From a virus, in IMG/VR virus record IMGVR_UViG_3300037520_001276, positions 20,397 to 84,396 of that record: a stretch of 64,000 nt of DNA; one strand, 5' to 3'. Each line of letters opens with the position of its first letter. Position 1 is the first letter of the stretch. Under the pieces are notes generated by a model that had not been told where the DNA came from, did not search any database, and saw only the letters and a program-made list of their open reading frames with translations. Shown in pieces: positions 42,178 to 64,000 of the stretch. Both the position numbers and the translations under genes were made by a program.

Positions 42178-42465
42178 CTATTCAAAAACCAAAAAGTCTC
42201 CCCCTTCGGTTGTCATCATATCACCTAATTCGGTTAGGATTATGAATGTTTCTAAATCACAAGATATTATCTGAAAATAAATACAACCCGTACTATCAAC
42301 AGATTTTATCATTAAAGTAGTTGCCGTCTGTAATAATGTTGGTAATATATAGATACCCGGTGTTGTCCCTAATAAAGAACAATTATTACCATATTGGTCA
42401 CAAGCATAGAAACTAATCGGTGCGGTACCACCTGAAACACCTGTTATGTCTATTGAATAAGCCAT
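42178..42465 (-). CDS. Small tail-cluster protein, paralogue 3 of 3 (95 aa)
   Basis: Begins MAYSIDITGVSGGTAPISFY and continues with ACDQYGNNCSLLG, a central strand and STGCIYFQIISCD, then an acidic tail ending FLVFE. Related to the proteins at 34615 and 41875 by the G-G-T-x-P start and TGCIY element. Its start overlaps the stop of the large adhesin gene by one base, so the two are coupled. It may associate with that adhesin. Confidence 0.65.
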   Translation of the reverse strand: MAYSIDITGVSGGTAPISFYACDQYGNNCSLLGTTPGIYILPTLLQTATTLMIKSVDSTGCIYFQIISCDLETFIILTELGDMMTTEGGDFLVFE

Positions 42466-45400
42466 TATACCGGTCCTCCGTCATATATATCCCAACTTTT
42501 AGTTGTTGTTAAATAGTTTCTTGCAGCAGTTGCCGTTGCCCCACTATATTTTGAATTTCCAAATTCTGCGACAACTCCATTTTGTAAAGACGCACCATAT
42601 GATGACCAACCTATTAGTAAATCATTATAACTATCCGTGGTAAATGCGACTACCGTAGGGCTACCATCATTATCTTTTAGGAATTCCGATAACCCCGGAA
42701 AACTAGTAATATCAGTAACATCCCAACTTCCTATGTTATTAACTTCAGTTGCTCCACTAAAGGCGTTATAAAATAATTTTAAAGAAGTTCTACCATTTAG
42801 ATTTGGTGTGTCGATAACATTATCAAATTTTAAATTATAACAACCTCTAAATTCATCGTTAGGTCTTGGTCGGTATCCACCCCACTCGTCGATTGATATA
42901 AATTTCAATCTGTCTGAACCTCTATCATATGGAGAAGTTCCTGGGTATCCGACTTGAAATTCCCAACTAGGTATTAATCCATTATCCGGAAAAATACTAA
43001 TTTGATAAATTCCTGGTGTAGGGTAGGTATGAAGACTGCTGGTTCCCACTAAAGGACTTGTAGTACCATCCCCCCAATGAATACTTCCGTTAGAGAAAGA
43101 CTGCCCAGGTGATGAAAAAGGTAATCTTATAACGTATGGTCCCGATGATGTAATCATTTGGTCTCCAGTTATAGGGTCAATATATGAACCATAAACAATT
43201 CTAGTATCTACAGTAAATCTAAATGCAGGTATCGGTGTTGGAGTCGGTGTTGGAGTCGGTGTTGGAGTTGGTGTTGGTGTTGGAGTCGGAGCAACCGGAT
43301 AAGTGTATATAAATGTATTTGAGTAATCACTTACACCAGCACCGTTACATGTTTGTTTTATTCTAAAATAAACAGTACTTGTTGTTGCTGTTGTTGCTGT
43401 TGTTGGTATTGTTCTATACAAAGAACAAGCACCGGTATTTGAGTTCCATGTTGCCCCACTATTTGTTGAGTACTCAACTGTTGTTGCTAGACAAGGTCCG
43501 CAAGGTAAGTTAAAATAAATACCAAATAATCCTGTCGTATTTATTGGACCTGCACTTGATATTGTTGGTGTACAACATACTACGGTTGGTGTTGACGCTG
43601 TTGATGCACTACCAGTACAAGTGGCGTCGTAATCTATTTGTAATTCTAATTTGTATTCAGAATTACCAATTGGGTCAATGTCTCCCGAACAATTAGACTC
43701 TATGTGTATTGTATTGTTTAACTCATCAATTGTGAAATCACCAACACCATTAATATTTGATAGTAGAAATTCAACGGTACTTAACCATAAACTATCTGAA
43801 GGGATGTCGTCAATATCGGTTATGTTGGCAAATGTTTGCGTATATGCACTACCATTTATAGTGATAGAACAAGTTAAATCGGCATTTAAAATAGTACAAC
43901 CAGTATAACCTGATGTTGCATCCATAAAACCTTCAAAAAACATTTCAGATATTCCTCTTTTTGCACCAACGGTCGTTGTAAATTCATTTTCACATAAATT
44001 ATATGTTTGATATGCTGATATTAAATTACCAATACAAGTAATATTAAAATAATTGGTTTCAGAACACCCATCAATATCGGTAACTGTTAAACTATAAGTT
44101 CCTGCGGTTAATCCCGCAACTGAAGACCCCACAGAACCATTAGACCAAAGGTAAGTAAATGGTGGCGTACCTCCATATATTGAAGTGGATGCGGAACCAA
44201 GAGTTGTTCCAACACAGTTTGTATAATTAATTGCAAAACTAACAGTAGGTGTTGTTGTTATTGAAAAATTTTGACTGACGGTACATCCTTGGTTATCGAC
44301 AACACTTATTGTATAATTCCCTGGTACTAAGCTTGTAAAAGTTTCTGCACTTGATGTTGTGTTTGGTATTACACTATCGTTTATTAATGGTGTATCAATA
44401 TTTTCTAAAACATAGGTTATTGATCCTGTGTATCCTGTACCAACAATTACTTCTACCGAACCGTTTGGTTGTCCACAAGTAGATCCTGTTGTTGTTGCCG
44501 AAACTGTAAATTTTTGTTGTGAATTAATTGTTGCTGTTGTTGTATAAGCACAAGCAGCTCCTGAACCAGATATTAATAAATCATATGTCGCATTACTTAA
44601 ACCTGTTTGTGTAAAACTTTGGTTTGTTCCAAAGTAACTATAAACGGTCCCTCCTGTTTGTGCACTTAAAACATATAGATAATTTTGACTGCCTGTTCCT
44701 AATATTGAAACACTTATTTCTCCGTTATTTTGACTACAAACGGAATTTGTCACATTTAAACTATTTAATGAAAAACCATTTTGCGTGTTTAAAGATCCCG
44801 GTATAGTTAATACACAAAAATTAGCATCTCTAACTAAAATATTATAAATTCCAGCACCTAAATTACTTACAGTAAATGTATTTGATAGTGTATACCCAAC
44901 CTGACCTGTGTTTGCCGAATAAAAATATGGTGATGTTCCTCCTGATATCGTATAGGTTAAACTACCATCAGTCGCAAAACAACTAGGACTAATACTAGTT
45001 AAACCAACAAACCCTAAAGGTTCTGCAATACCTATTGTTTCTTCAACTGTTGTTGAGCAACCTAAACTATCCGTAACCGTACAACTATAAGTCCCTTGAG
45101 TTAGTCCTGTTACGAGTTGTGTTGTTTCTCCATTATCCCATAAATAAGTGAATGGCCCAACACCCGTAAGTCCGGTTACTGCAAGTTTTCCTGTGTTTAT
45201 AACACATGTTGATGCGTTAACTTTCCAAAGTCCAAAATTAACACCAGTAGAATCATAAATTAAAGAGTTTGGTGTATTTGCACTTACCGCACCAAAATCA
45301 AAAATGGTTGAGTAGTATGTACCAGCACTTAAATTAGTAAAGGTGTATGGTAATGTTAATGTTTCTATAACTTGGAAAATAGATCCGTCTTTATATAATA

Positions 45401-45926
45401 TAATATCATAAGGACTATTAATAGATGTTGCACTAACCGTTAGAGATCCGTTTGGTAATCCGCATGTTGTGGTGTCGACATCTGTTATAACTGAAGTAAA
45501 ACATTCAGAAACATATATGTTTATGTATTGCTCATTGTTTTGTAATCCTTGATTATCATTTATTCTAAAGACGTATGTTCCAGCACTAAGTCCTGTGTAT
45601 GTAAATGGTCCGTTACTCGTTTGTAATGGTAAAGTACCTGGAATTATATTATCTATAGTATACGGTAAAACACCACCAAAACCAGTGATTATTGTTGACC
45701 CCGATGTTGAATCACAAACTCCGGTTACAGTAAAAGTAGTACTTAAAATACCTGTATTACAATTTTGTGTACAAGTTATTCCTGTTGCAACGTAAACCCC
45801 ACTTGCACTTCCTGAAAAAGCACCGTCAATACAAATACTTTCACCTAAAGAAATACCCGATTGTAGATTACCACAACAATCAACATAACTGTAAATACCA
45901 TTGGTTAAACCTGAAACACATGCCAT
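42465..45926 (-). CDS. Large modular tail adhesin: SprB repeats, Pro-Thr linker, PKD and BspA-like C-terminus (1153 aa)
   Basis: Residues about 65-640 hold seven or eight SprB-type units (e.g. VGPFTYLWDNGETTQLVTGL, GTYSLTVTDIDGCSETNYF). Residues about 640-870 are a mixed Cys-rich region. A (Thr-Pro)n linker lies near 876-900. The C-terminal 250 residues contain a PKD-like strand (IHWGDGTTSPLVG), a BspA/DUF285-like unit (AFSGATEVNNIGSWDVTDIT) and an end typical of BspA surface proteins (KYSGATATAARNYLTTT, SWDIYDGG). These modules normally belong to host surface proteins. The protein probably is a long receptor-binding fibre. Confidence 0.8.
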   Translation of the reverse strand: MACVSGLTNGIYSYVDCCGNLQSGISLGESICIDGAFSGSASGVYVATGITCTQNCNTGILSTTFTVTGVCDSTSGSTIITGFGGVLPYTIDNIIPGTLPLQTSNGPFTYTGLSAGTYVFRINDNQGLQNNEQYINIYVSECFTSVITDVDTTTCGLPNGSLTVSATSINSPYDIILYKDGSIFQVIETLTLPYTFTNLSAGTYYSTIFDFGAVSANTPNSLIYDSTGVNFGLWKVNASTCVINTGKLAVTGLTGVGPFTYLWDNGETTQLVTGLTQGTYSCTVTDSLGCSTTVEETIGIAEPLGFVGLTSISPSCFATDGSLTYTISGGTSPYFYSANTGQVGYTLSNTFTVSNLGAGIYNILVRDANFCVLTIPGSLNTQNGFSLNSLNVTNSVCSQNNGEISVSILGTGSQNYLYVLSAQTGGTVYSYFGTNQSFTQTGLSNATYDLLISGSGAACAYTTTATINSQQKFTVSATTTGSTCGQPNGSVEVIVGTGYTGSITYVLENIDTPLINDSVIPNTTSSAETFTSLVPGNYTISVVDNQGCTVSQNFSITTTPTVSFAINYTNCVGTTLGSASTSIYGGTPPFTYLWSNGSVGSSVAGLTAGTYSLTVTDIDGCSETNYFNITCIGNLISAYQTYNLCENEFTTTVGAKRGISEMFFEGFMDATSGYTGCTILNADLTCSITINGSAYTQTFANITDIDDIPSDSLWLSTVEFLLSNINGVGDFTIDELNNTIHIESNCSGDIDPIGNSEYKLELQIDYDATCTGSASTASTPTVVCCTPTISSAGPINTTGLFGIYFNLPCGPCLATTVEYSTNSGATWNSNTGACSLYRTIPTTATTATTSTVYFRIKQTCNGAGVSDYSNTFIYTYPVAPTPTPTPTPTPTPTPTPTPIPAFRFTVDTRIVYGSYIDPITGDQMITSSGPYVIRLPFSSPGQSFSNGSIHWGDGTTSPLVGTSSLHTYPTPGIYQISIFPDNGLIPSWEFQVGYPGTSPYDRGSDRLKFISIDEWGGYRPRPNDEFRGCYNLKFDNVIDTPNLNGRTSLKLFYNAFSGATEVNNIGSWDVTDITSFPGLSEFLKDNDGSPTVVAFTTDSYNDLLIGWSSYGASLQNGVVAEFGNSKYSGATATAARNYLTTTKSWDIYDGGPV
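43229..43290. repeat. Hexanucleotide repeat array encoding (Thr-Pro)n
   Basis: About ten GGTGTT/GGAGTC hexamers, closely similar in sequence to the three arrays at 35.4-36.0 kb. It could recombine with them. Confidence 0.8.
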
Positions 45927-45935
45927 ATTTTATAA

Positions 45936-48908
45936 TTAGTTCGTACAATTTATATCTATATCAACACCAATGTTAATATATAAAGTTTTATCAGTGAAAC
46001 TATCATAACAAGTAGTATTACTAACTATTAGATTATTTCCCGCCAAATAATAATTTAAACCAAAACTATATAAAGTATCTAATTCGGTTTCTATTCCATT
46101 TAATATTTCCGTCGTTGTTGGTGTTTCATCACCATATCCCGTAAAAAATGGACTCTGTATCAATATGTTATCATCTAATCTGCAATCAATGTACCACGTA
46201 CTAATTACGCTAGTTTGATCACATTGTGATTGTGTATACCCACTTGATGAGATTAGATCGTTAATTGAATCATTTAATATTTCTTGAGGAAATAGTGGGT
46301 TTGAAAGGTTTGTTAAATTACAAGTTAAAGTCTGATCAATACAATCATATGTGAATAGTTGTCCATTGTAAGTACAAGGAATACAACTAACAGGAATGAA
46401 TACACAACCTCTTTGTCTTCTCCAAACTACTTTTTGTCTATGGAAAACCGAGTTATCCATTTTTTGCCCTGTCATCCAAATAGTAGTTGCAGGAACTACT
46501 TGTTCTAATAATCTTTGCCAATAATCACCTAAACCTAACGTAAAATCAATCATTTTTTGATATGTGAATTTATTGTTAGGTATTCCAACGGTTTCTTCTG
46601 ATTGTAAGTATCTCCAAAAAATAGATTGTAATGTTGGGTATCCTCCTGTTTTACCATCGGATATTGTCCACCTGTTTCTCACATTAATAAAATTATTATA
46701 AAAATTTTGAGCAAACTCAAAAAATGTTTTTTCTTTTGGTTTCGGATTAATATAGGTCCAATCAATATTACCAGGTGATGGGTATGGTGCGGTTAACCCT
46801 GAATTTGGTATTGGGTAATCGTATTGTACTGACATGTCCCAAACATCATACGTGATACCTTGACCCATATTCAAATACGCTTCTATTATTTTTGTATTTA
46901 AAACTAACTTGTCGTCATCTGCAAAATAATTAGCCCCATTAAAGTTACTATCAACTCTTCTATTTTCAGTATTAATTTCCCAAGACTTTTGGTTATCTAT
47001 TGTTTTCGTTAATTCAAACCCGAACGTACCCATTGATGGGAAATTTCTAAACCTTTCTAAATATTCTTGACCATAAGTAAATGGTTTCAAATAAGATATC
47101 AAATATGGATTTGCAGGATCAAAAGAAGAATTTGCGGTGTCTGCAACTTCATCCGATCTATGTTCAGGTGTTGTTTCAAACCAACCACTACCTAATTGAT
47201 AATAAAAACTATCGTTATTTGCTGGTGGTTTTGGGTACCCTTCTTTATCGGTAGGAAAATCTGTCGGTACTGAACTTACTAACCCTATACTTGCAGAAGT
47301 AGTAAAACCTGAATATGTTTTCCCTAAAATACTAAATGTATTTGTTGTGTCTAATGCCGGTACAACATCTAATAATGTCCCTCCAGAAATAGAACTATAT
47401 AGTTGATTAAATCTATCTATATTTATTTTAGAGTCCGCAAGGTAAACTATTTCATTTAATTCTATTAATGCTTCAGGTGCCCCAATAAATCTTAAAACAT
47501 ATTCTAAAGATTTTCTTGTACCTTTTGATTTGAACATATATGAGGCATTTAAAATTAAATTCCTATAATATTGAAAGTTTAATTCCGTTGGTGTGTCGGG
47601 TCTTGATTGTCCCGCATAAATTTGAGTCGCATCAGGATTAAAAACTGATGTTAAAAAATTTTCGTTAGTTATTGGTGATATGTTTGGGTTTAAACCTAAT
47701 GTTTGAGCTAAATTTGTAAGAAGTTGTGAAGGTATATCATTTTCAACCTTATAATTAACTGAGTTCATAAAAGCAAGAGCGTCTATGAATTTTTTAACTT
47801 CATCAAAACTTCTTCCGTAAATTTGTAATATTTTTTCTATTTTTTGATCAGGAGTGTCAAACTCAATAAATGCCCCTGTTATTAAAAATCTATTTATTAA
47901 ATTTGTTTTATATGTGTCTAAAGCATTTGCTATTTTTTGTAATTTAGAAAGATATGTATTAAAATTTTGAGATGTTATATCTAAATTCCAATAAACATCT
48001 TTTTTCCAAGTAAGTCTTTCATTATATGTTGTATAGTTACCATCACCATCATAATCAAAGTATTTGAAGTTAGAGGTGTACATAGGTATTGTTTTTCTAT
48101 TCAATAAAAAATCCTCAATCTCATCAAAACTGTCCGTAAAAATTTGTTCTGTAACTAAATTATTTGGTTTTATGATTAAAGTTTCGTTTGATTGCGTAAC
48201 TATTGATGTTTTGTTTTTAAACGGGTCACCTTTAACGATTAACGATACTGTACCTCCAGATATTGATTCTGTTGGTATAAAATCCAATAGTTGGTAACTT
48301 TCGTTTAAATCTTTAAAATATAAAGAATAACTTGTAAAGTTATCAGTTATGTTTCTATATTTTGAAACCCCCAAAGGTCTTGTTTCAATATTTCTTCTTG
48401 CATTTACTGAATAATCAATACCAAAAGGATTACTAAATAAAAAAACATCAACGTCAAATGATGTTTCATCGTCAACACTATCATAAACAATATTTGTTGC
48501 TGTTGGTAATGATGCTATTGATGATTGATTAGAATACACCTCAATCGCAGCAGGAAAAAAGTTAATTATTTTAGTAACTGAGGCTAATAATCTTTTTTGT
48601 AATGATCCATAGAGAGCAAAACTAGTAACTTGTGATATATCAAAATTAGGATAAACTTTAAAATTTTTTTGTATTATTTTTTTAGTTTCTTCTATATTAT
48701 CAATTTTTAGATTTTCTAAAGTATATGGTTCAGAAAATATACCCGTATCAAAATTTCTATTTACCTTTTCATAAATTGCGGTAGTAAATTGAAAATTACC
48801 TTGCGTTAAACCTCCTCCAGCAACAATTTGTAAACCAACTATTTTGTCAGAAAATGTTTCTGTACCTCCTGGAGGTGCTGGTGGGTATGAAAATCTTAGT
48901 TTAGCCAT
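45936..48908 (-). CDS. Large tail/baseplate structural protein (990 aa)
   Basis: Begins MAKLRFSYPPAPPGGTETF. Residues about 330-490 are helical and include YRNLILNASYMFKSKGTRKS followed by LEYVLRFIGAPEAL. This segment (stalk helix, then a basic K-G-T-R-K-S turn) I associate with large baseplate proteins of Bacteroidota phages and with tail-protein-I-like baseplate components. The C-terminal 200 residues contain several Cys (CVFIPVSCIPCTYNG). Its position between fibres and baseplate wedge genes suggests it links fibres to the baseplate, a role comparable to T4 gp7 or gp10; that comparison is inference. Confidence 0.7.
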   Translation of the reverse strand: MAKLRFSYPPAPPGGTETFSDKIVGLQIVAGGGLTQGNFQFTTAIYEKVNRNFDTGIFSEPYTLENLKIDNIEETKKIIQKNFKVYPNFDISQVTSFALYGSLQKRLLASVTKIINFFPAAIEVYSNQSSIASLPTATNIVYDSVDDETSFDVDVFLFSNPFGIDYSVNARRNIETRPLGVSKYRNITDNFTSYSLYFKDLNESYQLLDFIPTESISGGTVSLIVKGDPFKNKTSIVTQSNETLIIKPNNLVTEQIFTDSFDEIEDFLLNRKTIPMYTSNFKYFDYDGDGNYTTYNERLTWKKDVYWNLDITSQNFNTYLSKLQKIANALDTYKTNLINRFLITGAFIEFDTPDQKIEKILQIYGRSFDEVKKFIDALAFMNSVNYKVENDIPSQLLTNLAQTLGLNPNISPITNENFLTSVFNPDATQIYAGQSRPDTPTELNFQYYRNLILNASYMFKSKGTRKSLEYVLRFIGAPEALIELNEIVYLADSKINIDRFNQLYSSISGGTLLDVVPALDTTNTFSILGKTYSGFTTSASIGLVSSVPTDFPTDKEGYPKPPANNDSFYYQLGSGWFETTPEHRSDEVADTANSSFDPANPYLISYLKPFTYGQEYLERFRNFPSMGTFGFELTKTIDNQKSWEINTENRRVDSNFNGANYFADDDKLVLNTKIIEAYLNMGQGITYDVWDMSVQYDYPIPNSGLTAPYPSPGNIDWTYINPKPKEKTFFEFAQNFYNNFINVRNRWTISDGKTGGYPTLQSIFWRYLQSEETVGIPNNKFTYQKMIDFTLGLGDYWQRLLEQVVPATTIWMTGQKMDNSVFHRQKVVWRRQRGCVFIPVSCIPCTYNGQLFTYDCIDQTLTCNLTNLSNPLFPQEILNDSINDLISSSGYTQSQCDQTSVISTWYIDCRLDDNILIQSPFFTGYGDETPTTTEILNGIETELDTLYSFGLNYYLAGNNLIVSNTTCYDSFTDKTLYINIGVDIDINCTN

Positions 48909-50937: not shown

Positions 50938-51791
50938 ATTGGATTTACATACTCATACCAGTTTATGGGGTTTGTTGTCCCTTCCCCTACTCTAACATAA
51001 ATAAAATTTGACTGATTTGAAGGGATCTCTTTATAAACACTATATTCGTAATTTTCATAATCAAAAAAAACTTTATAATAAAAATATTGACTCTTATTAA
51101 AATCATATACATTAGGACCTAAAAAACTACTTTGTGGTGTATTCATCATTCTAACAAATTGTCCTTTTTTAGCATTAAAAAATTTACAACTCATATACAT
51201 TTCTGTTTGTGATAAAAATGATTGGTTTTTTAACCAATAAAAATAAAAACCTTCTTTATCGGCACCTATCGAATCTAAAATCATGTATGGTTTTTTAACC
51301 AATACGGTTAAGTTAGGGTTACCAAAAAGTATTCCTGGTTCTTTTTCTCCTTGTTGTGTTGGTAATACGACTGAAAAAAGTATTTTTTGATTTTCAGTGG
51401 TATTTCTATCATAGAAGTCCAACTTATAAAAACTTTTTTTAAATGAGTTTGCAAAATAATAAATTTCTTCATCTAAAAACCCTTCGTTTTGATAATCATC
51501 TAACCATTGATTTATGTTTGGGGGATTAACTAAAAAATCTGTTTGCCCTTGTTGGTTAAAAAAATTAAATTTATAATGTATTTGTGTTTTTGTTGTATCG
51601 TTTTCCCAAGTGGCATGACTAAATCTGGTTGTTTCAAAATCACTTATAGGGTTTATTATTTCTTCTTTTATTTTATTTGATAATTCATCAATAGCCTCGT
51701 CTCTACCCGACATATCAAAGTTAATTTGAATGGGTATATTAATACTTTTATCTTCAGCATTAAAAGAAAATCTATAATTACTCACACTCAT
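50934..51791 (-). CDS. Tail/baseplate structural protein (285 aa)
   Basis: Begins MSVSNYRFSFNAEDKSINIP; contains DEAIDELSNKIKEEIINPI (helix) and a series of beta strands with many Phe/Tyr residues. No family motif is recognised. Overlaps of 4 and 14 nt with its neighbours tie it to the structural operon. Confidence 0.65.
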   Translation of the reverse strand: MSVSNYRFSFNAEDKSINIPIQINFDMSGRDEAIDELSNKIKEEIINPISDFETTRFSHATWENDTTKTQIHYKFNFFNQQGQTDFLVNPPNINQWLDDYQNEGFLDEEIYYFANSFKKSFYKLDFYDRNTTENQKILFSVVLPTQQGEKEPGILFGNPNLTVLVKKPYMILDSIGADKEGFYFYWLKNQSFLSQTEMYMSCKFFNAKKGQFVRMMNTPQSSFLGPNVYDFNKSQYFYYKVFFDYENYEYSVYKEIPSNQSNFIYVRVGEGTTNPINWYEYVNPI

Positions 51792-53520
51792 CTCTTTCTA
51801 TTGTATTAAGTTGATTTGTTTGTACAAACATCCTTCTAGTTATTGGGTATTGATTAAATAGTATATTTGTAAATGGGTAATGGGCTCCGTTTAGAAAAGG
51901 ATAATTAACACCTCTACCATCTCCATCAATAAAACCATAAGTATATATATCTCTCCAAAAAAATGTTTGTTCTGTTTCTGAAAACCAAGCATAACTTGGT
52001 AAGTTGTCTATCTCACCTTTTTTACCTGTTTCAATATCATCACTAAAAACTCTAATAGTGATTTCGTTATGTGGTTTATAAACATAACCACTTGGTAAAT
52101 TTACAGGTGAACTGTCCCATAATAGGGTTGGGTTAAACGAGTACTTATGATTTATATTAGATAGAACATATTCATTTTGTTCAAAATCATTATATTCACA
52201 AAAATCACCTTTAATCACGGAACCTAATGGTAATATTTTATTAAAATAAAAATTTAATGAATTAACAGTATAACTATCAAGTGGTATCTCATCTTTATTA
52301 ACCGTTGATGAATGGTTCCACCAGTTATCGACAGAATTTTCTAAAAAGTTAAAGTCCCAACCAATATCAATTCCTGTTGGTGATCCATTAAATGTAAGGG
52401 CAGGTGGATTAAAATACCCCATATACCCTCTTTGTACTATTGTATAAAATAATTTTGTTAACGGTTTTCCATTATTATCTAAAAGACCTTCAATATTAAC
52501 ATCTTTAGAAAAAGAAAAAGAATAATTTTGATTATCATCTTTAAATGAAACTCTTTGAATGTTATTTGGTGTCAATGCAGAGTACTCTAACTTAGATTTA
52601 ACATTAAACGCATTTCTATCAAACCCTGTTTTAAAAACATCTAAATCTTTTATTTCGGTTAATGTTTTGTGTAATCTTATATAATATCTTGATTTTGTTT
52701 CGGCACTATTTGTTGTTGTGATAATCCTTTTAAAGTTACCGTAAGTTCCTGTTTGTGTTTGTGATGGATTAAATTTTTGATTATATGTTGTAAATACATA
52801 TTTTTCTGAATTATATGTCCCATCACCAACCGAATATACTTGAAAAACTTTTTTACCGTCAATACCTAATGGTTGTGTTGGTAAATTAATTTCAAAAAAG
52901 TCACCTATTCTTAGGTTGTGTTTTGTTGCACAATAAAAATATAAAACTTGAACCCCGTCTAATTGTCCTGTATCTATTACAAAGGGTATACCGTCAGAAA
53001 CTAAAAAATTGGCATTTGTGACCCCAAATTTTTCACTTGTCCATGACATTCTTTGTGTTGTGTCACTACTAAATGGATATGTTATATACGACATCCAATT
53101 ATACGTTGCCGCACTTTTAGCAACAAAAGGAATGTGCCCATTGATACCTTGCTCCCTATAAAAAGTAAATTCATAAAATTGTGGATAACCATCCCAAGGA
53201 GTGTTTGGGTTTTGTGATTGTGAAATTGCGTTATTAATTTGATTTGTGTAATATAAATTATTTTTATATGGTTCGTATTGTGTTGATCCGCTAAGAGTAC
53301 TTTGAAACAAATTTACAATTTTACCAGACAATCTAAATACACTACACTTATTTCTTTCTTGATTAAATTGTTCAACTTGGTTTACTAATATATTTCTTTC
53401 ACCTTCAACCATATCTCTTCTTTCTCCAGCAAGTGGCACTTGTATCCATACAGGCTTATCGGTACTTGTTGCAAATCTTTTTGATCCTAAAACTATTCTT
53501 GTTTCATCTTCTTTTGACAT
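51778..53520 (-). CDS. Tail/baseplate structural protein (580 aa)
   Basis: Begins MSKEDETRIVLGSKRFATST, then DKPVWIQVPLAGERRDMVEG, a conserved-looking start for a baseplate component. The body is beta-rich with Asn, Tyr and Phe. The C-terminus is Asn/Arg-rich (NQYPITRRMFVQTNQLNT). It lies 4 nt downstream of the 1740-aa gene and overlaps the next by 14 nt. No fold assignment possible by eye. Confidence 0.65.
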   Translation of the reverse strand: MSKEDETRIVLGSKRFATSTDKPVWIQVPLAGERRDMVEGERNILVNQVEQFNQERNKCSVFRLSGKIVNLFQSTLSGSTQYEPYKNNLYYTNQINNAISQSQNPNTPWDGYPQFYEFTFYREQGINGHIPFVAKSAATYNWMSYITYPFSSDTTQRMSWTSEKFGVTNANFLVSDGIPFVIDTGQLDGVQVLYFYCATKHNLRIGDFFEINLPTQPLGIDGKKVFQVYSVGDGTYNSEKYVFTTYNQKFNPSQTQTGTYGNFKRIITTTNSAETKSRYYIRLHKTLTEIKDLDVFKTGFDRNAFNVKSKLEYSALTPNNIQRVSFKDDNQNYSFSFSKDVNIEGLLDNNGKPLTKLFYTIVQRGYMGYFNPPALTFNGSPTGIDIGWDFNFLENSVDNWWNHSSTVNKDEIPLDSYTVNSLNFYFNKILPLGSVIKGDFCEYNDFEQNEYVLSNINHKYSFNPTLLWDSSPVNLPSGYVYKPHNEITIRVFSDDIETGKKGEIDNLPSYAWFSETEQTFFWRDIYTYGFIDGDGRGVNYPFLNGAHYPFTNILFNQYPITRRMFVQTNQLNTIERDECE

Positions 53521-53524
53521 ATTA

Positions 53525-56500
53525 TTATCCGATATAGTTTGTTATGAATTTATTAAGAGCCGTCTTACCTTTATTTAAACCAAAATAGAAATGAAATGGT
53601 GCACCCACAACAAAACTATCACCTGTTTGTATAGTACCCGTCCAATTTGGATCGTTATTACCATTTACGTCTGAATTAAATATATATCCTTTTTGTCCTG
53701 TTGGTGTCGTATTAAAGTACCTAGATGCTGGTGCGTATTGGAAACTCATTGATTGGTATTTGTTAGAATAAAAAGCATTGTTTGCAACAATTACATTTGT
53801 ATACCATTCATTATTGTCGGTACCAAAAATTGTTTGTTGTCCTGCAGTTGGGTTTGATGTCCAAAGGTACATTGGTACTTCTTGTGTTTTAGTATAACCA
53901 AAATAATTTAGTAGTGGTGGTGTTAATGAAAATGTTAGTACACCAGGTGAGAGTACATTTCTACTAGCAGTATCTGAAGAAAAGAAAATACCAAATACAC
54001 TATTAAAAGTACCTCCTTGCACATATAAATCATTATCATCATATTCCTCATCACCAAAAGGAACAACACCAAACTCAGAATTAATACTAAACATTTGTGC
54101 AATATCACCATCCAATCTATCGCCGCTTCTTGAGAAAAATCTATTAACCGATTTATCACCCAACCCTAAAGTATCTAACCAATAGTTTTTATTAACAAAT
54201 CTTGAAATTATAGCTAAGTTAAGTACGTCTCCTTGGTCGTTATAAGAACTACTTTCTAAGTTTTTCATTAAATACCCTTCAAAATTGGGGTTAGAGCAAA
54301 TTTCTTTTGTGTATAAATCTCTTGGACCTAAATCCATTATTGTTGTTGGGAAAAATAAATTTCTGTCATTGTTAGCTCCAAATGGTACTTGAACATATCC
54401 TCCAAACCCAAGAGGTTGGTACTCAGGTCTCTGTCCTACAAATGTTTGTTGGTTTCCGTTATATGGTGAAGACCTATAAAAAAAGGAGTTAGTTGTTCCT
54501 GAAGTATAAAATAAAGTACCTTGACCTGACCTAAAAAACGAGTTTGGCATACCACAATACTTATATTTTTTTGGTTCTCCCGCAACATTAAATGTTGTTT
54601 GTTTTTTAAATGAAAACATATATAAAGAACCATTTAACCAATTGTTTTGAAAAACTTGCGAAAATATCCCACGACACGCGGCATATGTTACCCTAAACCT
54701 TGACCTCCATTCTCTAAAATATCTAATATCGTTAGGTATAGATACGATTAATGGTTTATCAACAAAGAAATAACAACCACCATCAACCCTACTGTCGGTA
54801 TTTTGACCTAATAAATTATCAATTGGGTCTGTACACGGTGTTTCAACACCAAAATTATTACCGCTACCAGAATAACATGTAATAGGAACCATCCCTTCAC
54901 ATGTTAGGGTATTTAGTATCGCATCAGTATACGCATTACTGGTATCTCCGCTTAAGTCTTGAGCATTAAACGTATTATCTGTTGCCTCAAAATCATTAGA
55001 AGGTATTGCAACAGAGCTACCCTGATCATCTACTGTATAAATTTCAAAACGATTATTTAAATGTAATGAAAATGAAGTATTACCTGAAACCTCCGTAACA
55101 TCAGATGTTGGTAATCTGTCCGATCTAAATACTAGTCTATTATTATTAGTTACCGTAATATTTGGATTTGATCCGTTTGTGTGGTATGCAAATGAATAGA
55201 CTCTAGCATTTTCAAAATCAGCAGTTGGTGATCCTTGAAAAGTTAATCCAGGTACCGCAATCAATGTACCCCCTTCAATGTTTCCTTGATCGGTGTTTGG
55301 AAAAAGATCGTATGTCGGTCCTGAAGTTGTACACAAAACCGGATTTAATTGTATCGTACCAAGAGAGTCAGTTATTAACACATAATACGTGTTAGTCCCA
55401 CTTAATTTAGCAATAAAATAACCGGAACTATCGTATGGAGTGGTAAGGTTAGAATTCGTATAAAGTTTGGTAACGGTAGGAAAAGCAGATGGTCTATTAG
55501 CGTAGAGTGGATTCGTAAACGCTAAAGGATCTATTGTTGCCGCACAGGCATCAGGCTGAAATGGATATTGTATTCCATCTGTTAACCAAACGTATTGATT
55601 TAGTGTTGATGGTGTGTGTCCAAATTGGAACCCCATTTTATTTAGTGGTGTTTGATCTGTTGTCTTAAATGCAGGTGAATAAACACCAGTACCGTTCAAG
55701 TAAAACCCTAATGTATATAAATCACCATAATACGCAACACTACTTGTGGTTGATTTGTCTGTTGAGTTATAATAATATGGGTTATTATTTGTAAAACTCG
55801 AAAATTGTGTTGTATCAACATTAAACCCAAAAGGTTGGTGGTATAGGGATACATTAGTGTTGTTAGTCACCAAATGTGATTCTGGTGATTGGTTAGAATT
55901 ATACCAAGAAGGTGGTGTTGGTGATCCGTTTGGTACTGTGTTTGGTTGTATTGGTACATTCAAATAATAACTACCTTCAACAATAGGTCCCGAACCAAAT
56001 GAAGAGTATCCAAACAATTTAGATAAATCGTATTTTATATTTTGTTTATCAGTATATGGGTCAACACCTCTTGATAAAATCAAAACTTCTAAATCATTAA
56101 ATCCATCAAAATTTCTAATAGAATACACATAACTGTCATTTTGTGTTGATGTTGGAAACGAAGGCCAATTTTCTAAATATTGTGTTTTTCCAAACAAATA
56201 CTTATTAAGTGCACCACCAAAAACTGAAGGATTAGTTATTGCTGAAAATTGACTAACAGTTCCTCCTGTTATTAATTGGAAGTATTCTAATCCTGACTTA
56301 AATTTATATTCCTTACCATCAGATGTTATATTTAATTTTAAATTTATTGTTTGTATATTACCCGATTGATCGATATACGTTAATGGTTTATTTACTAATG
56401 CGTTTGTGTTATATGGTGTTGATCCCGTTATTGTTGTAGTACCAAATTGATTTCCAGATGTAAACCCTGTAATATTTGGGTCGTTAATATTATCAACACT

Positions 56501-58747
56501 ATTAAAAGTTAATATTTGACCTGCATTAATGTTGCTTAATGTTTGTGAATCACACAACAAAATTAATACACTATCGGTGAATGGTGTTGATGGGTCTAAT
56601 GTTGTAGTATTTGGTATTGTATTATTTACGGTTGTTTCTATGATATTTTGACCTTCAAAATATCTTGCCCTAAAATTAACCATGTTCATTGATTGAGCTA
56701 AAGAAACGTCCCATGGTGCTTTACCCCATCCGGGAGTTACTTCTTGTGAAGCAAATGGGACTTTAATGATTTTATTTGATGCCGCATTTCCTTCTAAACC
56801 CTGAAACCCTGAGAGAAATTCTCTATATTCCTCATTTAACGTTTCATTAGAAGAGTCAAGCGTATTATTTGCTATAGTAAAAGAGTTTGATGATGTTAAA
56901 TTAGCCAAAACACTATAATTACCTAATGTTATATTATACACATCACTTTCTGTTTTTGATGAAGTGTCTAATTCTTGCTCTGTACAAGGGCAAGATTCAC
57001 AATCAGGATAAGACATCATAGGTAAAGATATTCTTTTAAAGGGGTTTGTTTTTGATATTGGTGTGATATTTTGTTTTTTACATTGACTTCTCCTTAATCT
57101 AGGCGATAATATCGCAACAACAATACATATTGAATATACAAAAGTATTAATTAACCATATGAATAAATTTATAATTACCCTAAAAATCGGATATAGTAGT
57201 GCTAAAACATGTAATATGATTAAAATATTTGGTACTAAAAATGAAACTATTGTTATTAAAAACATCATTAGAAAAAATATCAAATCAAAGTTTCTAACTC
57301 CGTCATTTACTGGCAGTTTATTAATTTGATTACATTCTTTACTGTCAATTTCTTTTATACCTAAATGTCTATTTCTATTATATCCCCATTTAAATCTATC
57401 AATAAAATTAGCAACAGTATAAACTTTATTAAAATTAAACTCATAAAAATAGTCCTCGCAATTAATAGCAACCTGTGGATCGGCATAATCATTCCAATCC
57501 AAACTAAATGCGTATGATTTTAATTGTAATGAATAATCAAAATTACTATCATCATATTTACCACTATCTGTCCAACCGTATTCTCTTATATTAGGAACTA
57601 AATAATCAGCTCTTTGAATTGTGTTGTTTTCAACATCTTCGTTTTGATACTGAACCCTAAATCTATATCTACCCTTAGTTGGTATACCAACCGATGGGTC
57701 GTTAGAAATGACTTGTTCTCCAAATTCATTTGTTGTCACATAATCAATATTCATTGGGAGTTCGACTAACCAAGCACCGTCTTCATCAATAACTTTACCT
57801 CCGTTTGGTAAGTTAAACTGTTCTAGTACGGGTCTACCACTAGAATCGTACCCTATTGTTTGTCTTATAGATAAAATCTTACCGGGACCTGTTTCTAACC
57901 CACATAAACTACCTATATCTTTTTTAGGTTTACAGTTTGTTCTTAAAAAATCTTCTTTTGATGTAGAAAATATTGACCCCATAAAAATAGCTTGTGGTTT
58001 AATTTCAATACCTAAATCTCTTAAATCAAAATCAGTTCTTGTAATACCAATATTACATAATTCGTTTTCACCCCAAAAAGGAGTTACATCTATGTCTCTA
58101 ACAAAGTTTACAATTTGTGGTAGTGATGCTAAATCTTCAGATGATTTAAAATTTTCACCGTCAAATTGTTCAGGAGTACCAAGACCCGTTCTTATTAAAT
58201 CTTTTGGTCTTAATGAAAAACAACCCATATCCGATAGGTCTAAATCCATTACGATAGTTTGTATACCTAAAGGAACCCCAACAATCATAAAATCACCACT
58301 ATCGTTAGTTGTTGTTGTGTATTTGTAATATTTTTCGTAAACTTCTAATACCTCTATTCTTGTTAGTACATCTTCCTTGTCTGGAAATGTCCCTGTTGGT
58401 GTGTGCCCTCCGTAACTTTTTTTATAAGGTAATAAATTATATCTGTAACCATCTTCATTTTTTTCTGCAGGTGTTTTATAAGGATATAAGTTAGATATTA
58501 CAGGATCATTTTCGTCTACTTGATCTAAAGGAATGAATATTGAAACGGTTGCGTTAGGGACACCATACCCACCATTAACAATAACCCTTCCAGCAACAAC
58601 ACCATAATCTGCACAAAATCTAGTATAAACATCGTTCTGTCTTAATTTTAAAGATAGTATTTCTAAAAAATCAAAGTCTTGGTTTATGTTAATTCTTATG
58701 TTTTTGTCTGTACCGACTTGTGTTCTTAATCTGTAACTTTTGGACAT
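53525..58747 (-). CDS. Giant tail/baseplate protein with internal membrane-type segment (1740 aa)
   Basis: Residues about 50-170 look like a carboxypeptidase-regulatory/Ig-like domain (AGRVIVNGGYGVPNATVSIF, NDSGDFMIVGVPLG). At about residues 486-546 there is a run of some 60 hydrophobic residues (FDLIFFLMMFLITIVSFLVP, IWLINTFVYSICIVVAIL), enough for two or three membrane spans. A Cys cluster follows (YPDCESCPCTEQ). The remaining 1150 residues are beta-rich, Asn/Thr/Ser-rich structure. Position beside gp6 and gp25 marks it as virion. A membrane segment in a tail protein suggests insertion into the host envelope during DNA entry. TATTTAT lies 14 nt before the ATG. Confidence 0.75.
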   Translation of the reverse strand: MSKSYRLRTQVGTDKNIRININQDFDFLEILSLKLRQNDVYTRFCADYGVVAGRVIVNGGYGVPNATVSIFIPLDQVDENDPVISNLYPYKTPAEKNEDGYRYNLLPYKKSYGGHTPTGTFPDKEDVLTRIEVLEVYEKYYKYTTTTNDSGDFMIVGVPLGIQTIVMDLDLSDMGCFSLRPKDLIRTGLGTPEQFDGENFKSSEDLASLPQIVNFVRDIDVTPFWGENELCNIGITRTDFDLRDLGIEIKPQAIFMGSIFSTSKEDFLRTNCKPKKDIGSLCGLETGPGKILSIRQTIGYDSSGRPVLEQFNLPNGGKVIDEDGAWLVELPMNIDYVTTNEFGEQVISNDPSVGIPTKGRYRFRVQYQNEDVENNTIQRADYLVPNIREYGWTDSGKYDDSNFDYSLQLKSYAFSLDWNDYADPQVAINCEDYFYEFNFNKVYTVANFIDRFKWGYNRNRHLGIKEIDSKECNQINKLPVNDGVRNFDLIFFLMMFLITIVSFLVPNILIILHVLALLYPIFRVIINLFIWLINTFVYSICIVVAILSPRLRRSQCKKQNITPISKTNPFKRISLPMMSYPDCESCPCTEQELDTSSKTESDVYNITLGNYSVLANLTSSNSFTIANNTLDSSNETLNEEYREFLSGFQGLEGNAASNKIIKVPFASQEVTPGWGKAPWDVSLAQSMNMVNFRARYFEGQNIIETTVNNTIPNTTTLDPSTPFTDSVLILLCDSQTLSNINAGQILTFNSVDNINDPNITGFTSGNQFGTTTITGSTPYNTNALVNKPLTYIDQSGNIQTINLKLNITSDGKEYKFKSGLEYFQLITGGTVSQFSAITNPSVFGGALNKYLFGKTQYLENWPSFPTSTQNDSYVYSIRNFDGFNDLEVLILSRGVDPYTDKQNIKYDLSKLFGYSSFGSGPIVEGSYYLNVPIQPNTVPNGSPTPPSWYNSNQSPESHLVTNNTNVSLYHQPFGFNVDTTQFSSFTNNNPYYYNSTDKSTTSSVAYYGDLYTLGFYLNGTGVYSPAFKTTDQTPLNKMGFQFGHTPSTLNQYVWLTDGIQYPFQPDACAATIDPLAFTNPLYANRPSAFPTVTKLYTNSNLTTPYDSSGYFIAKLSGTNTYYVLITDSLGTIQLNPVLCTTSGPTYDLFPNTDQGNIEGGTLIAVPGLTFQGSPTADFENARVYSFAYHTNGSNPNITVTNNNRLVFRSDRLPTSDVTEVSGNTSFSLHLNNRFEIYTVDDQGSSVAIPSNDFEATDNTFNAQDLSGDTSNAYTDAILNTLTCEGMVPITCYSGSGNNFGVETPCTDPIDNLLGQNTDSRVDGGCYFFVDKPLIVSIPNDIRYFREWRSRFRVTYAACRGIFSQVFQNNWLNGSLYMFSFKKQTTFNVAGEPKKYKYCGMPNSFFRSGQGTLFYTSGTTNSFFYRSSPYNGNQQTFVGQRPEYQPLGFGGYVQVPFGANNDRNLFFPTTIMDLGPRDLYTKEICSNPNFEGYLMKNLESSSYNDQGDVLNLAIISRFVNKNYWLDTLGLGDKSVNRFFSRSGDRLDGDIAQMFSINSEFGVVPFGDEEYDDNDLYVQGGTFNSVFGIFFSSDTASRNVLSPGVLTFSLTPPLLNYFGYTKTQEVPMYLWTSNPTAGQQTIFGTDNNEWYTNVIVANNAFYSNKYQSMSFQYAPASRYFNTTPTGQKGYIFNSDVNGNNDPNWTGTIQTGDSFVVGAPFHFYFGLNKGKTALNKFITNYIG

Positions 58748-58819: not shown

Positions 58820-60661
58820 CTATGAAAAGTCTACAGACTTTAGATTTTTAACTCTAACTTTAATATCCTTGTTATCGTACCTTATTTGATATATTTGATC
58901 TGGTTCGGCAAATACGGTATCATCGATTAAACGAATTTGTCTTGTTTCGGGGTCAATATATCTTTGTGATGTTTGAGATGAGGAATATTGTCCTCCAACT
59001 TTATTAAATACATTAATTTCTGTTAAAGATATTACACCTGCAGTGTTTTGTACTAACCTTCTAACATCAGAAACGTTAACATTTTGACCAAGTTCTCTGT
59101 TTTTTGGGTTCATATAATTTGAAATCTGATCAATAATCTCAGTTATAACTTGTCCTTGATTCTGTGTTGATTCTAAAACGACAAAAAGTTCTAACTCTAA
59201 ATCAATAACTTTAGCTATATCAATTGCAATGTAATCATTTATCATTCTATACTTTGATAGGTATGTCGCTAAATTACTTTTTAAGTAATTTGACACCACT
59301 TGTGTTAATTTACCAGTATCATCATAAGATAAAATTTGAACATTAATTTTATTATTCTTTTCAGTTATTGAAACTTTTGCTGGAGCACCAAATTTACTAG
59401 GCATTGTATCAATTAATGACTTATAATCATTAATTGTTACCGCTCTTTTTTGTGCAGAAAAGTTAAAAGAAACCATGTTTCTAACTTCTTCTGTTGATGG
59501 TGGATTTGCTCCCCCAATTGCTGCCGTTACATTGTTACAACCCAAAGATTGTTGAACATTTCTATTTATTGAGTCTGATGGTCCGGTGACCGCAAAATCA
59601 ACAGTACCAACTTGATTAATAACTCCAACACCTACATTTGTAGCCAAACCACCACCAACCCTATATTGGATAAATAATGTTGTATTTGGTCTAACAGTTA
59701 AACCTAAACCAATGTTATTTTGGTATTTGTTAATATCTAAAGGTATTCCTGTATTTGTAAAACTTTTTAATTGTTCATTTGGTGTTGTTGTTCCTCCTCC
59801 AAATTGTAGTTTCATAAAACCTTCGGGAGTATATTCAGACATAAATCTTTGTTCTGTTTTAATATATTTACCAACCTTAATACCACTACTATCTATTGGT
59901 TTTGTGGGATCTTCAACAAATATTGTATCTTCGGCCAAAGCGTCAACTTCATACCATTTATTATTTGTTGCATTTAAAAAATCTTGGAATGTTGGCGTAC
60001 CTGGATATGATGTTCCGTCTTTTTGAATAACACCTGTAACACCTAAAACATTTCTTTCAGGTAAAAATAAATTAAAAAATGGAACCGCATCTACCGGATT
60101 TATAACTTTTTTAAATACTTTAGTAAACCCATTTACAACCACCTCTCTTTTTGTGATAATGTAATTCACTACTTTATTATTAGCATCAAATGTTGGTATC
60201 TTAGTTCTATTAATAAACCCTTCTTGATTATACTGTGTTGAAAAGTCTATGTCATATATTGTTTCAAAAGAAGTACCTCCTCCATTAAATTGTGAACCCG
60301 CCCTTAAAATTCCCAAATATCTAAAGTCTTCAGAGTCTCCAAGTGGTGGTACCGTTATTGATATATCAACAATAGCAACTGATGGTCTATATCCGGGTAT
60401 TTTTAAACCATATGTTCTTGCAATATTATAAATTGAGGATCTTTGTTGTGCGTATTGTAAAACCGTTTCTTGAATACTTCTATCAATATGAAAATGTAAA
60501 TTGTCAGCAACTGCAGCGTTCAAATCCATTAAAACAGAATATACTGAAGCATCATTAAAGTTTTGTATTAGTTCTGGGTAATACTGTTTTGTGTAGTTAA
60601 TTAAATCCTGCCTTAACCCTTCAAAATCTCTTTCAGTATAATTTATTTTATTATTTGCCAT
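58820..60661 (-). CDS. 6: Baseplate wedge protein, gp6/baseplate-J-like
   Basis: 613 aa, similar in length to T4 gp6 (660 aa). The N-terminus (NYTERDFEGLRQDLINYTKQ, then FNDASVYSVLMDLNAAVADNLHFHIDR in its key residues D, L, N, A, D, H) is typical of gp6/baseplate-J proteins. A central beta region with GGGTTTPNEQL and the conserved EVRNMVSFNFSAQKRAVTI segment follow, then VTINDYKSLIDTMPSKFGAP. Gp6 forms the core ring of the baseplate wedge in contractile tails. It lies 1 nt downstream of the gp25-like gene, the same neighbour relation seen in contractile injection systems. Confidence 0.9.
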   Translation of the reverse strand: MANNKINYTERDFEGLRQDLINYTKQYYPELIQNFNDASVYSVLMDLNAAVADNLHFHIDRSIQETVLQYAQQRSSIYNIARTYGLKIPGYRPSVAIVDISITVPPLGDSEDFRYLGILRAGSQFNGGGTSFETIYDIDFSTQYNQEGFINRTKIPTFDANNKVVNYIITKREVVVNGFTKVFKKVINPVDAVPFFNLFLPERNVLGVTGVIQKDGTSYPGTPTFQDFLNATNNKWYEVDALAEDTIFVEDPTKPIDSSGIKVGKYIKTEQRFMSEYTPEGFMKLQFGGGTTTPNEQLKSFTNTGIPLDINKYQNNIGLGLTVRPNTTLFIQYRVGGGLATNVGVGVINQVGTVDFAVTGPSDSINRNVQQSLGCNNVTAAIGGANPPSTEEVRNMVSFNFSAQKRAVTINDYKSLIDTMPSKFGAPAKVSITEKNNKINVQILSYDDTGKLTQVVSNYLKSNLATYLSKYRMINDYIAIDIAKVIDLELELFVVLESTQNQGQVITEIIDQISNYMNPKNRELGQNVNVSDVRRLVQNTAGVISLTEINVFNKVGGQYSSSQTSQRYIDPETRQIRLIDDTVFAEPDQIYQIRYDNKDIKVRVKNLKSVDFS

Positions 60662-60662
60662 T

Positions 60663-61127
60663 TTAGATATTTATTATAATAAATTCTCTACTACCAAATG
60701 CCTTTGCTTCGTCTGTGTAGTCAATTTTTAGTTTAGCGGTGTATTCACCAGTATTTTGGCCAGGTATTTTAAAAACGCTAGCCTGACCCAATAATTCGTA
60801 ATTTAAATCACCAGGGGCTTCGTCACTTTCTAAAAAAGGCTCAACAGAAATATTATTAATAGTTAAGTTTGGTATGTACTTTGCAACCTGTTCTTCAATG
60901 TCAGTCCTAATACTATCAAATGTTTCTCCGTCTAAAGGTTCAAATATAAATTCATATATTCTTGTTCCAAAATCAGGTAAATAATATCTAGTTCCCTTCC
61001 TTGTTAAAATTAAATGTAATAAATTACTTCTTATTTCTTCTGAAGTCTCTTCAGATAAAGACAAATAAAAACCTTTATCGCTTTGTCTAAAAGGAAAATT
61101 TATTCCATATGTTGTTCCATCTGCCAT
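60663..61127 (-). CDS. 25: Baseplate wedge protein, gp25-like
   Basis: 154 aa, close to T4 gp25 (132 aa). Signature RKGTRYYLPDFGTRIYEFIF followed by EPLD lies at about residues 43-67, with the helix SEEIRSNLLHLILT before it, the GPW/gp25 fold. Gp25 starts sheath polymerisation and holds the inner baseplate. A TATTTAT box lies 5 nt before the ATG, and the gp6 gene follows 1 nt behind the stop. Confidence 0.93.
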   Translation of the reverse strand: MADGTTYGINFPFRQSDKGFYLSLSEETSEEIRSNLLHLILTRKGTRYYLPDFGTRIYEFIFEPLDGETFDSIRTDIEEQVAKYIPNLTINNISVEPFLESDEAPGDLNYELLGQASVFKIPGQNTGEYTAKLKIDYTDEAKAFGSREFIIINI

Positions 61128-62263: not shown

Positions 62264-64000
62264 TTATACAATTTCACAAGCACCACCGGCACATGCTGCC
62301 TCACCTCTAAGGTCAGTGTTATCTTGTAACTCAATAACTTTTGTAAGATCAACATCTGTTAATGATTTAACTAATCTTTCAAAGTCTTCTTTTGTACAAT
62401 CTTCAAAAGGTGCCTGTGTGTAAGTTCCTCCGTTGTATGGTAATACTGAAAGTCCGTTATAAAAGTCTCTATTATTCCACATCCAATCACCAACTAATTC
62501 CCACTCATCTTCTTTAATTGAAACGGTTGCCGATACGTTGTGAGTATTTTGTCCGTTTCTATGACCAGGTTTAATCCATTCTTGTGAAACTTTTTTAACT
62601 CTCTCTAACATCTGAAATACTGATTCATGTCTAACGATTGAACCTTCAGGTGCTCTTTGTGGAATAGTGATTACCGCAGTGTCGTGTGGTCTAAAGTATT
62701 CGTCTTCAATCAATTCAGGGTGGTTAATTGCCAAGTATGAATAGATTGATTCGTTTTTACCAACACGGATTCTTCTTAGGTAATAATCATTATGCCAAGC
62801 ATGAATACCTGATGATGTTCCCAATACTAAAGATGATGTTCCTGATGGTTTAACTGTTGTTGTTCTTGCAGATTTGTTAATTTTAATTAATGATGCAACT
62901 CTTTCGTTTTCTTCTTTAACTGCTTTAGCCGCCTTTTTCATATCATAACCCAATACAACACCTGAACCGATACCCGTCATACCAACACCAATAAGTGCGT
63001 CTTTTTCGGTTGTTCTTTTCCAAATGTCTCTTAGGTAATGAAAGTCTGTGTACCCTGCCTGTAATGTTCCAATAAATGATGCCGCTCTAACTCTTTTATC
63101 GAAGTCTTCTTGTGATTCAATATCTGATGCATTTACCTCACATAAGTTACAGAATTGGAATGGACGAAGTGCGATTTCACAACATGGGTTAGTTCCCCAA
63201 TCTTTATCGTTAGATAAATAGATTCCAGGTTCACCTGCTCCTGATAACTCAATACGTTTCCACAAATCCATAAAGAATTCTTTTGTGATTTTGTGACGAA
63301 GAAGTACTGCCGAGTTATTTGCTCTACCTCTTTGTGCGTTTTGTTCCCACCAACTTCCTGACTTACAAGAAATCATTTCTTCATCATCTGCCGAGAATAA
63401 AGATATAAGTGCAGCTCTTCTAATACCACCAGCAAGTACCGCATCAGCAATATGACACACAATATCATGGGTTTCAATCGGTGATAATCTTTCTCCATCT
63501 TTTTTGTTATCCAACACTTTTGTTATGTGGTGGATACAATCTTTTAGTGGTTGAGGTCCTGGTGCTTTACCCCCTGATGTTACAAGGTTTGCTCCTTTGT
63601 GTCTGATATCTGAAAAGTCAAATATCGGTGTTGACGATTTGTAACCTAAGTATGATTCCATCAATACTTTAATTGCGTCTGCCCATCCTTCAATAGAGTC
63701 ACCAATAAGGTAACGTCTTGTTCTTTCAGGGTTTGGTTTTTTTATTTCTGGTAGTTTTTCAACATGGTGTTTTTGAACTGAGTATCCAACTCCCGTTCCA
63801 CCTAAAAGTAAAAACATTGTTTCAGAAAATGCGTCTACATGGTCAATTGGCATATATGCACAGTTGTAGACTCTGTTTGGTGAAATCTCAATTGGTTTAC
63901 CACCGAATTGTAATGATCTCATTGATGGTAATACTTTCTTGTCGTATACCATTTTATATACCTCCTCTATCTCATCTTTGATGTGGGGGTACTTACGTTG
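62264..64000 (-). CDS. nrdJ: Ribonucleotide reductase, class II (adenosylcobalamin-dependent), N-terminus outside window
   Basis: The frame is open from the right edge (QRKYPHIKDEIEEVYKM) through the internal Met at 63952, so the gene is 5'-truncated by the window. Visible signatures are LPSMRSLQFGGKP, the substrate-side cysteine (NRVYNCAYMP), GTGVGYSVQKHHV, the catalytic loop NPCCEIAL with the radical Cys and Asn/Glu neighbours, FCNLCEVN, KPSGTSSLV, and a C-terminal redox pair C-A-G-G-A-C (CAGGACEIV). This set is that of monomeric RTPR-type enzymes, which make deoxyribonucleotides using B12. It would feed phage DNA synthesis; the glutaredoxin at 3030 may help reduce it. Confidence 0.88.
   Translation of the reverse strand, partial: QRKYPHIKDEIEEVYKMVYDKKVLPSMRSLQFGGKPIEISPNRVYNCAYMPIDHVDAFSETMFLLLGGTGVGYSVQKHHVEKLPEIKKPNPERTRRYLIGDSIEGWADAIKVLMESYLGYKSSTPIFDFSDIRHKGANLVTSGGKAPGPQPLKDCIHHITKVLDNKKDGERLSPIETHDIVCHIADAVLAGGIRRAALISLFSADDEEMISCKSGSWWEQNAQRGRANNSAVLLRHKITKEFFMDLWKRIELSGAGEPGIYLSNDKDWGTNPCCEIALRPFQFCNLCEVNASDIESQEDFDKRVRAASFIGTLQAGYTDFHYLRDIWKRTTEKDALIGVGMTGIGSGVVLGYDMKKAAKAVKEENERVASLIKINKSARTTTVKPSGTSSLVLGTSSGIHAWHNDYYLRRIRVGKNESIYSYLAINHPELIEDEYFRPHDTAVITIPQRAPEGSIVRHESVFQMLERVKKVSQEWIKPGHRNGQNTHNVSATVSIKEDEWELVGDWMWNNRDFYNGLSVLPYNGGTYTQAPFEDCTKEDFERLVKSLTDVDLTKVIELQDNTDLRGEAACAGGACEIV

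Follow-up and report, generated by a model that had tools for sequence, protein, structure and literature searches.

We analysed a window of 64,000 nt (positions 20,397 to 84,396 of the IMG/VR virus record IMGVR_UViG_3300037520_001276), in which a 1740-amino-acid protein is encoded on the minus strand at 53525–58747, in an open reading frame without an internal stop codon and with relatives in viral contigs. The gene lies inside a baseplate cluster. Immediately upstream of it is a gene for a gp6-like baseplate wedge protein (58820–60661, minus strand; PHROG 219, E = 1.8e-21, and a Baseplate_J match just under the cut-off), and upstream of that a gene for a gp25-like baseplate wedge protein (60663–61127, minus strand; PF04965, E = 2.5e-10, and PHROG 261). 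These matches bear out the gp6/gp25 neighbourhood proposed in an earlier, sequence-only reading of the window. The order of the three genes is kept in relatives G001, G002, G003, G006 and L267, and it is because of gene order that we place the 1740-aa protein in the tail. Downstream lies a gene for a 580-aa protein of unknown function (51778–53520, minus strand), its synteny also kept in relatives. The same cluster encodes a 990-aa protein (45936–48908, minus strand) that is weakly similar to gp109 of Flavobacterium phage immuto (21% over 234 columns, E = 2e-4, in one single comparison). A 1153-aa protein encoded at 42465–45926, in which repeats resembling those of SprB-type adhesins and a TPTPTP linker were recognised by eye, is likely a host-surface adhesin. 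Ribonucleotide reductase (62264–63952), gp25 and gp6 follow one another in the same order in the distant relatives G001, L267 and G021, and replication genes adjoin the baseplate cluster.

The source is an 84-kb linear virus record that is probably a fragment, and the window's own tape-measure protein (TMP) gene is not on the contig; the sheath, tube and tape-measure genes were therefore read in longer relatives. There, genes for a sheath, a gp19-like tube, a PF12322 hub protein and a TMP (phrog_12506) follow one another, from which we conclude that the phages are contractile-tailed.

No Pfam or PHROG family was matched by the 1740-aa protein, and a PHROGs scan across its relatives returned insignificant matches only. 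All parts described here are on the minus strand. The N-terminal domain (residues 1–480, 57308–58747) is strongly conserved in the alignment and beta-rich in the AlphaFold model. It includes Cys472 (57332–57334), which is invariant in the alignment and stands just ahead of a hydrophobic domain (residues 486–547, 57107–57292) that was delimited by hydropathy, by comparison with relatives and by an AlphaFold helix spanning residues 489–547. Past this domain, the alignment revealed a PDCxxCxC cysteine cluster (residues 581–588, 56984–57007). The C-terminal region (residues 589–1740, 53528–56983) is more variable.

The sequence-only reading had pointed to an almost entirely hydrophobic stretch at residues of about 486–546, with room for two or three membrane spans. 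Its coordinates and residue numbering proved right, and both the Kyte–Doolittle (KD) scale and shuffled sequences uphold the claim. The run is 62 residues long and contains one Arg, one Asp and one His. Its peak 19-residue KD value is 2.63, compared with a maximum of 1.61 in the rest of the protein, and the best 60-residue KD mean is 2.31, about ten standard deviations higher than the 0.70 ± 0.17 (maximum 1.32) obtained for 200 shuffles. Three non-overlapping KD peaks fall within the run, and two long spans fit equally well; the GES scale likewise finds several spans there. These spans were called by hydropathy scales (KD, GES). The flanking charges (mean −0.4 on the N-terminal side and +1.5 on the C-terminal side) give no consistent topology among relatives. 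A frame or coding artefact was ruled out, as the segment is conserved and evolves with a dN/dS of 0.03–0.05. The premise that such segments are rare in tail proteins holds only in part: TMPs often have them, but among the tail-module proteins 300 aa or longer in the four related modules of G001, G002, G003 and G006 this one alone reaches a KD peak of 2.0. Outside the tail cluster, a 390-aa protein encoded at 16083–17255 has a strong membrane segment (KD 2.81) and no PHROG match.

A segment with KD ≥ 1.6 was found at the same position in 114 of 116 distinct close-to-moderate relatives. The two exceptions are L124, an ORF starting inside the gene, and L203, which truly lacks the segment. On a family tree of 70 representatives, the segment is present in 66 and missing in four, with three changes on the tree. 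Residue identity within the segment has dropped to the level of the variable regions (top-residue fraction 0.42, vs. 0.72 in the N-terminal domain), while its hydropathy is kept (mean KD across relatives 1.85; charged residues 4.8% vs. 22%). Against the two nearest relatives tested, the dN/dS range given above applies, and in comparisons with two relatives at a greater distance one hydrophobic residue replaced another in 20 of 29 and 20 of 27 segment changes. Since hydropathy is maintained as identity falls, dN/dS is low and the place is conserved, the segment looks, at the sequence level, like a membrane domain under selection and not like a neutral or chance stretch. The hydrophobic moment is low (0.09–0.31), which argues against a one-sided amphipathic helix. 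In several sister lineages, the domain is longer, reaching about 100–130 residues with more spans.

The hydrophobic domain is bracketed by four cysteines (Cys472, Cys583, Cys586 and Cys588) that do not vary among 75 aligned relatives. The cluster past the domain was detected in 159 of 192 members bearing the segment and in none of five full-length members lacking it (TM-less), against a background of four in 790 stretches drawn at random from these proteins. From this distribution, it is reasonable to infer a putative metal site, or a clamp, located at the domain's base.

In several sister clades, a gene for a small membrane protein of 79–178 aa stands directly before the family gene (61 of 214 loci), separated from it by 0–25 bases or overlapping it. 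Examples are L267 (9579–9992), L269, L270, L282–L345, L337 and L383–L385. The small proteins have N-termini of the M(G/A/E)C type, such as MGCxTC, MGCNC, MGCC or MACNC, and in most of the sister clades that have them the segment of the large protein is shorter. In the window's broad clade, 120 loci were tested and none has such a gene. The small protein is possibly a partner, a chaperone or a targeting factor, and its adjacency is independent evidence that the family protein works in a membrane context. A 46-aa ORF at position 1969 of the window (plus strand) starts with MGCGCKNK, resembling the first residues of the small proteins, and has no membrane segment.

By what route the DNA of tailed phages passes the inner membrane is far from settled; the spans of TMPs are the usual suspect. 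In T5, 46 hydrophobic residues of the TMP pb2 have been proposed to enter the membrane as a pair of helices (PMC10038345); the diffocin TMP CD1366 has five predicted spans (PMC10996793) and the TMP of roseophage R4C has two (PMC10276861). The literature assigns such spans, largely on inferential grounds, to a conduit across a host membrane (PMC10038345, PMC10996793, PMC10276861). The 1740-aa protein resembles these three in having a hydrophobic stretch worth at least two spans in a large tail protein. In contrast to them, the segment is in a gp6-adjacent protein, and the TMPs of its relatives lack it.

We considered whether the 1740-aa protein is itself a TMP and rejected this on three counts. 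By sequence, it matches no PHROG or Pfam family, and a separate gene in the relatives matches TMP phrog_12506. By gene place, it follows gp25 and gp6, whereas the TMP follows the sheath, tube and PF12322 genes. As for a long coiled-coil body, residues 1–720 are mainly beta in the model, with the hydrophobic segment as the sole long helix. Though it fails all three tests, the protein may still do what the membrane portion of a TMP does.

The TMPs of the relatives were compared with the presence of the segment. TMPs with at least three segments of KD ≥ 1.6 were found in three of three cases lacking the segment or the whole protein and in none of 24 having the segment (Fisher p = 3e-4, with one representative per TMP at 90% identity and phylogeny ignored), the multi-span side consisting of three clear cases, two uncultured lineages and phage immuto. 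In segment-bearing genomes the TMP is mostly 598–691 aa long, reaching 1392 aa in a few lineages, and has no strong span. In the TM-less lineage of G021, G022, G037 and G038, it has 931 aa and seven spans; the L271 lineage, TM-less too and separate from the first, has a TMP of 844 aa with four. The third case, Flavobacterium phage vB_FspM_immuto, is cultured and contractile, and shares with the relatives related gp25 and gp6 proteins and the sheath–tube–hub–TMP order; unlike them, it has no match to the 1740-aa protein, and its TMP of 1006 aa has eight predicted spans. LR756508, an uncultured huge phage in which no family protein was detected, encodes a protein with four weak segments at the TMP position. 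In the TM-less L268 lineage the TMP runs off the contig end ahead of the expected span region. The contig of TM-less G012 is without a TMP, and no compensating span was found in its baseplate-cluster genes. By KD, then, the segment takes the place of TMP spans throughout this comparison, and by GES one lineage is mixed. That exception is G023 (the contig of L383, 380343 bases), which combines the segment and the small partner with two Gly/Ala-rich TMPs that have one or two spans by KD and five or six by GES; it is the sole lineage seen with both arrangements. The two TMP-like genes of G023, L393 and L394, lie about 226 kb apart, and both encode Gly/Ala-rich hydrophobic stretches.

Read most simply, the alternation means that the baseplate-cluster protein does in these phages what TMP spans do elsewhere. 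That a membrane-acting segment resides in a baseplate-cluster protein, as the sequence-only reading had suggested, is well supported as far as sequence comparison goes, by its conservation, the constraint on its hydrophobicity and its alternation with multi-span TMPs; for a role in host-membrane passage, the alternation provides indirect support. The sequence-only reading had also envisaged a segment buried in the virion and then freed to form a channel across the host inner membrane, which would be one hypothetical form of such a role; the membrane could be the inner or the outer one. We consider it somewhat better than an even bet that the segment is a membrane-inserting module doing the job of the TMP spans elsewhere. 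The wider proposal, to which we give slightly less than an even chance, is that the DNA-entry module moved from the TMP to the gp6-adjacent protein, that the two arrangements alternate in evolution, and that the TMP was reduced to a ruler while the baseplate makes the membrane opening. In the course of events proposed for a membrane-inserting module, the 1740-aa protein would join the baseplate beside gp6, as gene order suggests, and its hydrophobic helices would stay buried until tail contraction. At infection they would enter the host envelope, forming a hairpin or a bundle of helices which the flanking cysteine cluster may clamp at its base, and several copies could then hold the tip of the tube in place and line the path of the DNA or open it. 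A point against a membrane module is that assembly in the cytoplasm would need the segment to be shielded from the cell's own membrane-insertion machinery.

The predicted structure bears on whether the segment meets a membrane at all. An AlphaFold2 model of residues 1–720, built with 75 sequences (mean pLDDT 65.9), has mainly beta N-terminal domains, in agreement with the earlier description of a beta-rich protein around the segment, and one continuous helix of 59 residues (489–547, pLDDT about 70–83). The helix is separate from the beta-rich domains; the model, at moderate confidence, thus lends no support to the segment being the buried core of a globular domain. In the model, it could equally be a hairpin or a kinked rod. 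Foldseek gave low TM-score matches only, to adhesin or pilin-type beta folds, and the N-terminal domain of relatives had weak, sub-cut-off matches to a carboxypeptidase regulatory-like domain. The model of residues 1170–1739 is of low confidence (60.4) and had no PDB match; a profile search of the PDB with the family found no match up to E = 1. The uncharacterized protein A0A8S5LA66 of Myoviridae sp. ctPuP5 is an N-terminal homologue by both structure and sequence (38% over 446 columns, E = 1e-40).

Such a helix could be a structural element permanently packed in a multi-subunit bundle of the baseplate core, never meeting a lipid bilayer. Helical core bundles do occur in contractile baseplates, which speaks for this explanation, as does the presumed membership of the 1740-aa protein in a soluble assembly and the length of the continuous helix, which exceeds one membrane span. 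We nevertheless regard it as unlikely: the segment has almost no charge and a low hydrophobic moment, the domain of some relatives extends to the 100–130 hydrophobic residues and additional spans noted above, sister clades pair the segment with a separate small membrane protein, and TM-less lineages exist with spans in their TMPs.

The pairing with a small M(G/A/E)C-type membrane gene would also fit an assembly anchor: the segment would sit in the producer cell's inner membrane and hold the forming baseplate there. There is a precedent in the type VI secretion of Bacteroidota, where TssN, a five-span protein encoded among baseplate genes, connects the baseplate with the membrane complex (PMC10781749). 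We liken the 1740-aa protein to TssN as an analogue only; TssN belongs to a cell-anchored secretion machine. The anchor does not predict the reciprocal relation with the TMP, the small gene is missing from the window's broad clade, and virions would have to detach from the membrane at release; we hold this explanation to be less probable still. Least probable is a phylogenetic coincidence of one ancestral loss of TMP spans with the unrelated gain of a membrane segment that serves another purpose, for example outer-membrane adhesion: the TM-less cases are few and mostly on deep or long branches and G023 combines both arrangements, but the TM-less lineage related to L203 nests with TM-bearing sisters (99 support), and in G021, closely related to that lineage, the TMP is multi-span.

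For the preferred reading, a membrane-inserting module in the baseplate cluster, a further parallel is the Megatron (tail-tip) protein of R4C, whose helices have been proposed to insert in a membrane (PMC10276861). Like the 1740-aa protein, it is by description a distal-tail protein other than the TMP with proposed membrane helices; R4C differs in being a siphophage, in having these helices at the N-terminus of Megatron and in having spans in the TMP as well. A natural swap between two proteins would separate the ruler role from the membrane role, which would thereby become testable in a compact segment. For hundreds of unannotated phage contigs, it also offers an idea of what one of their largest conserved proteins might do, and wherever a TMP has no spans it points to the baseplate genes as a place to look for them.

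These uncultured contractile-tailed phages form a group that is both large and abundant. In IMG/VR, one distant query yielded at least 600 matches, and other queries yielded 84, 74, 27, 226 and 16; the TM-less L271 member, used as a query against viral contigs, found no relatives. A tblastn search of the INPHARED phage records with four query proteins gave no relative, and hence no cultured member. Five bacterial records carry relatives: L267 is from the record of Prochlorococcus sp. AG-409-L21, and L268–L271 are from MAGs labelled Wolfebacteria, Mycoplasmatota, Paludibacteraceae and Bacteroidota. These labels are very different, and at least some of the records are probably contamination or co-sorted phage. 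Aquatic Bacteroidota may be considered candidate hosts. Among the relatives, the protein at L006:2293-7725 is 93% identical to that of the window in the N-terminal domain and 63% identical in the hydrophobic domain, the second half of which is different, a mosaic that is a possible sign of module exchange by recombination.
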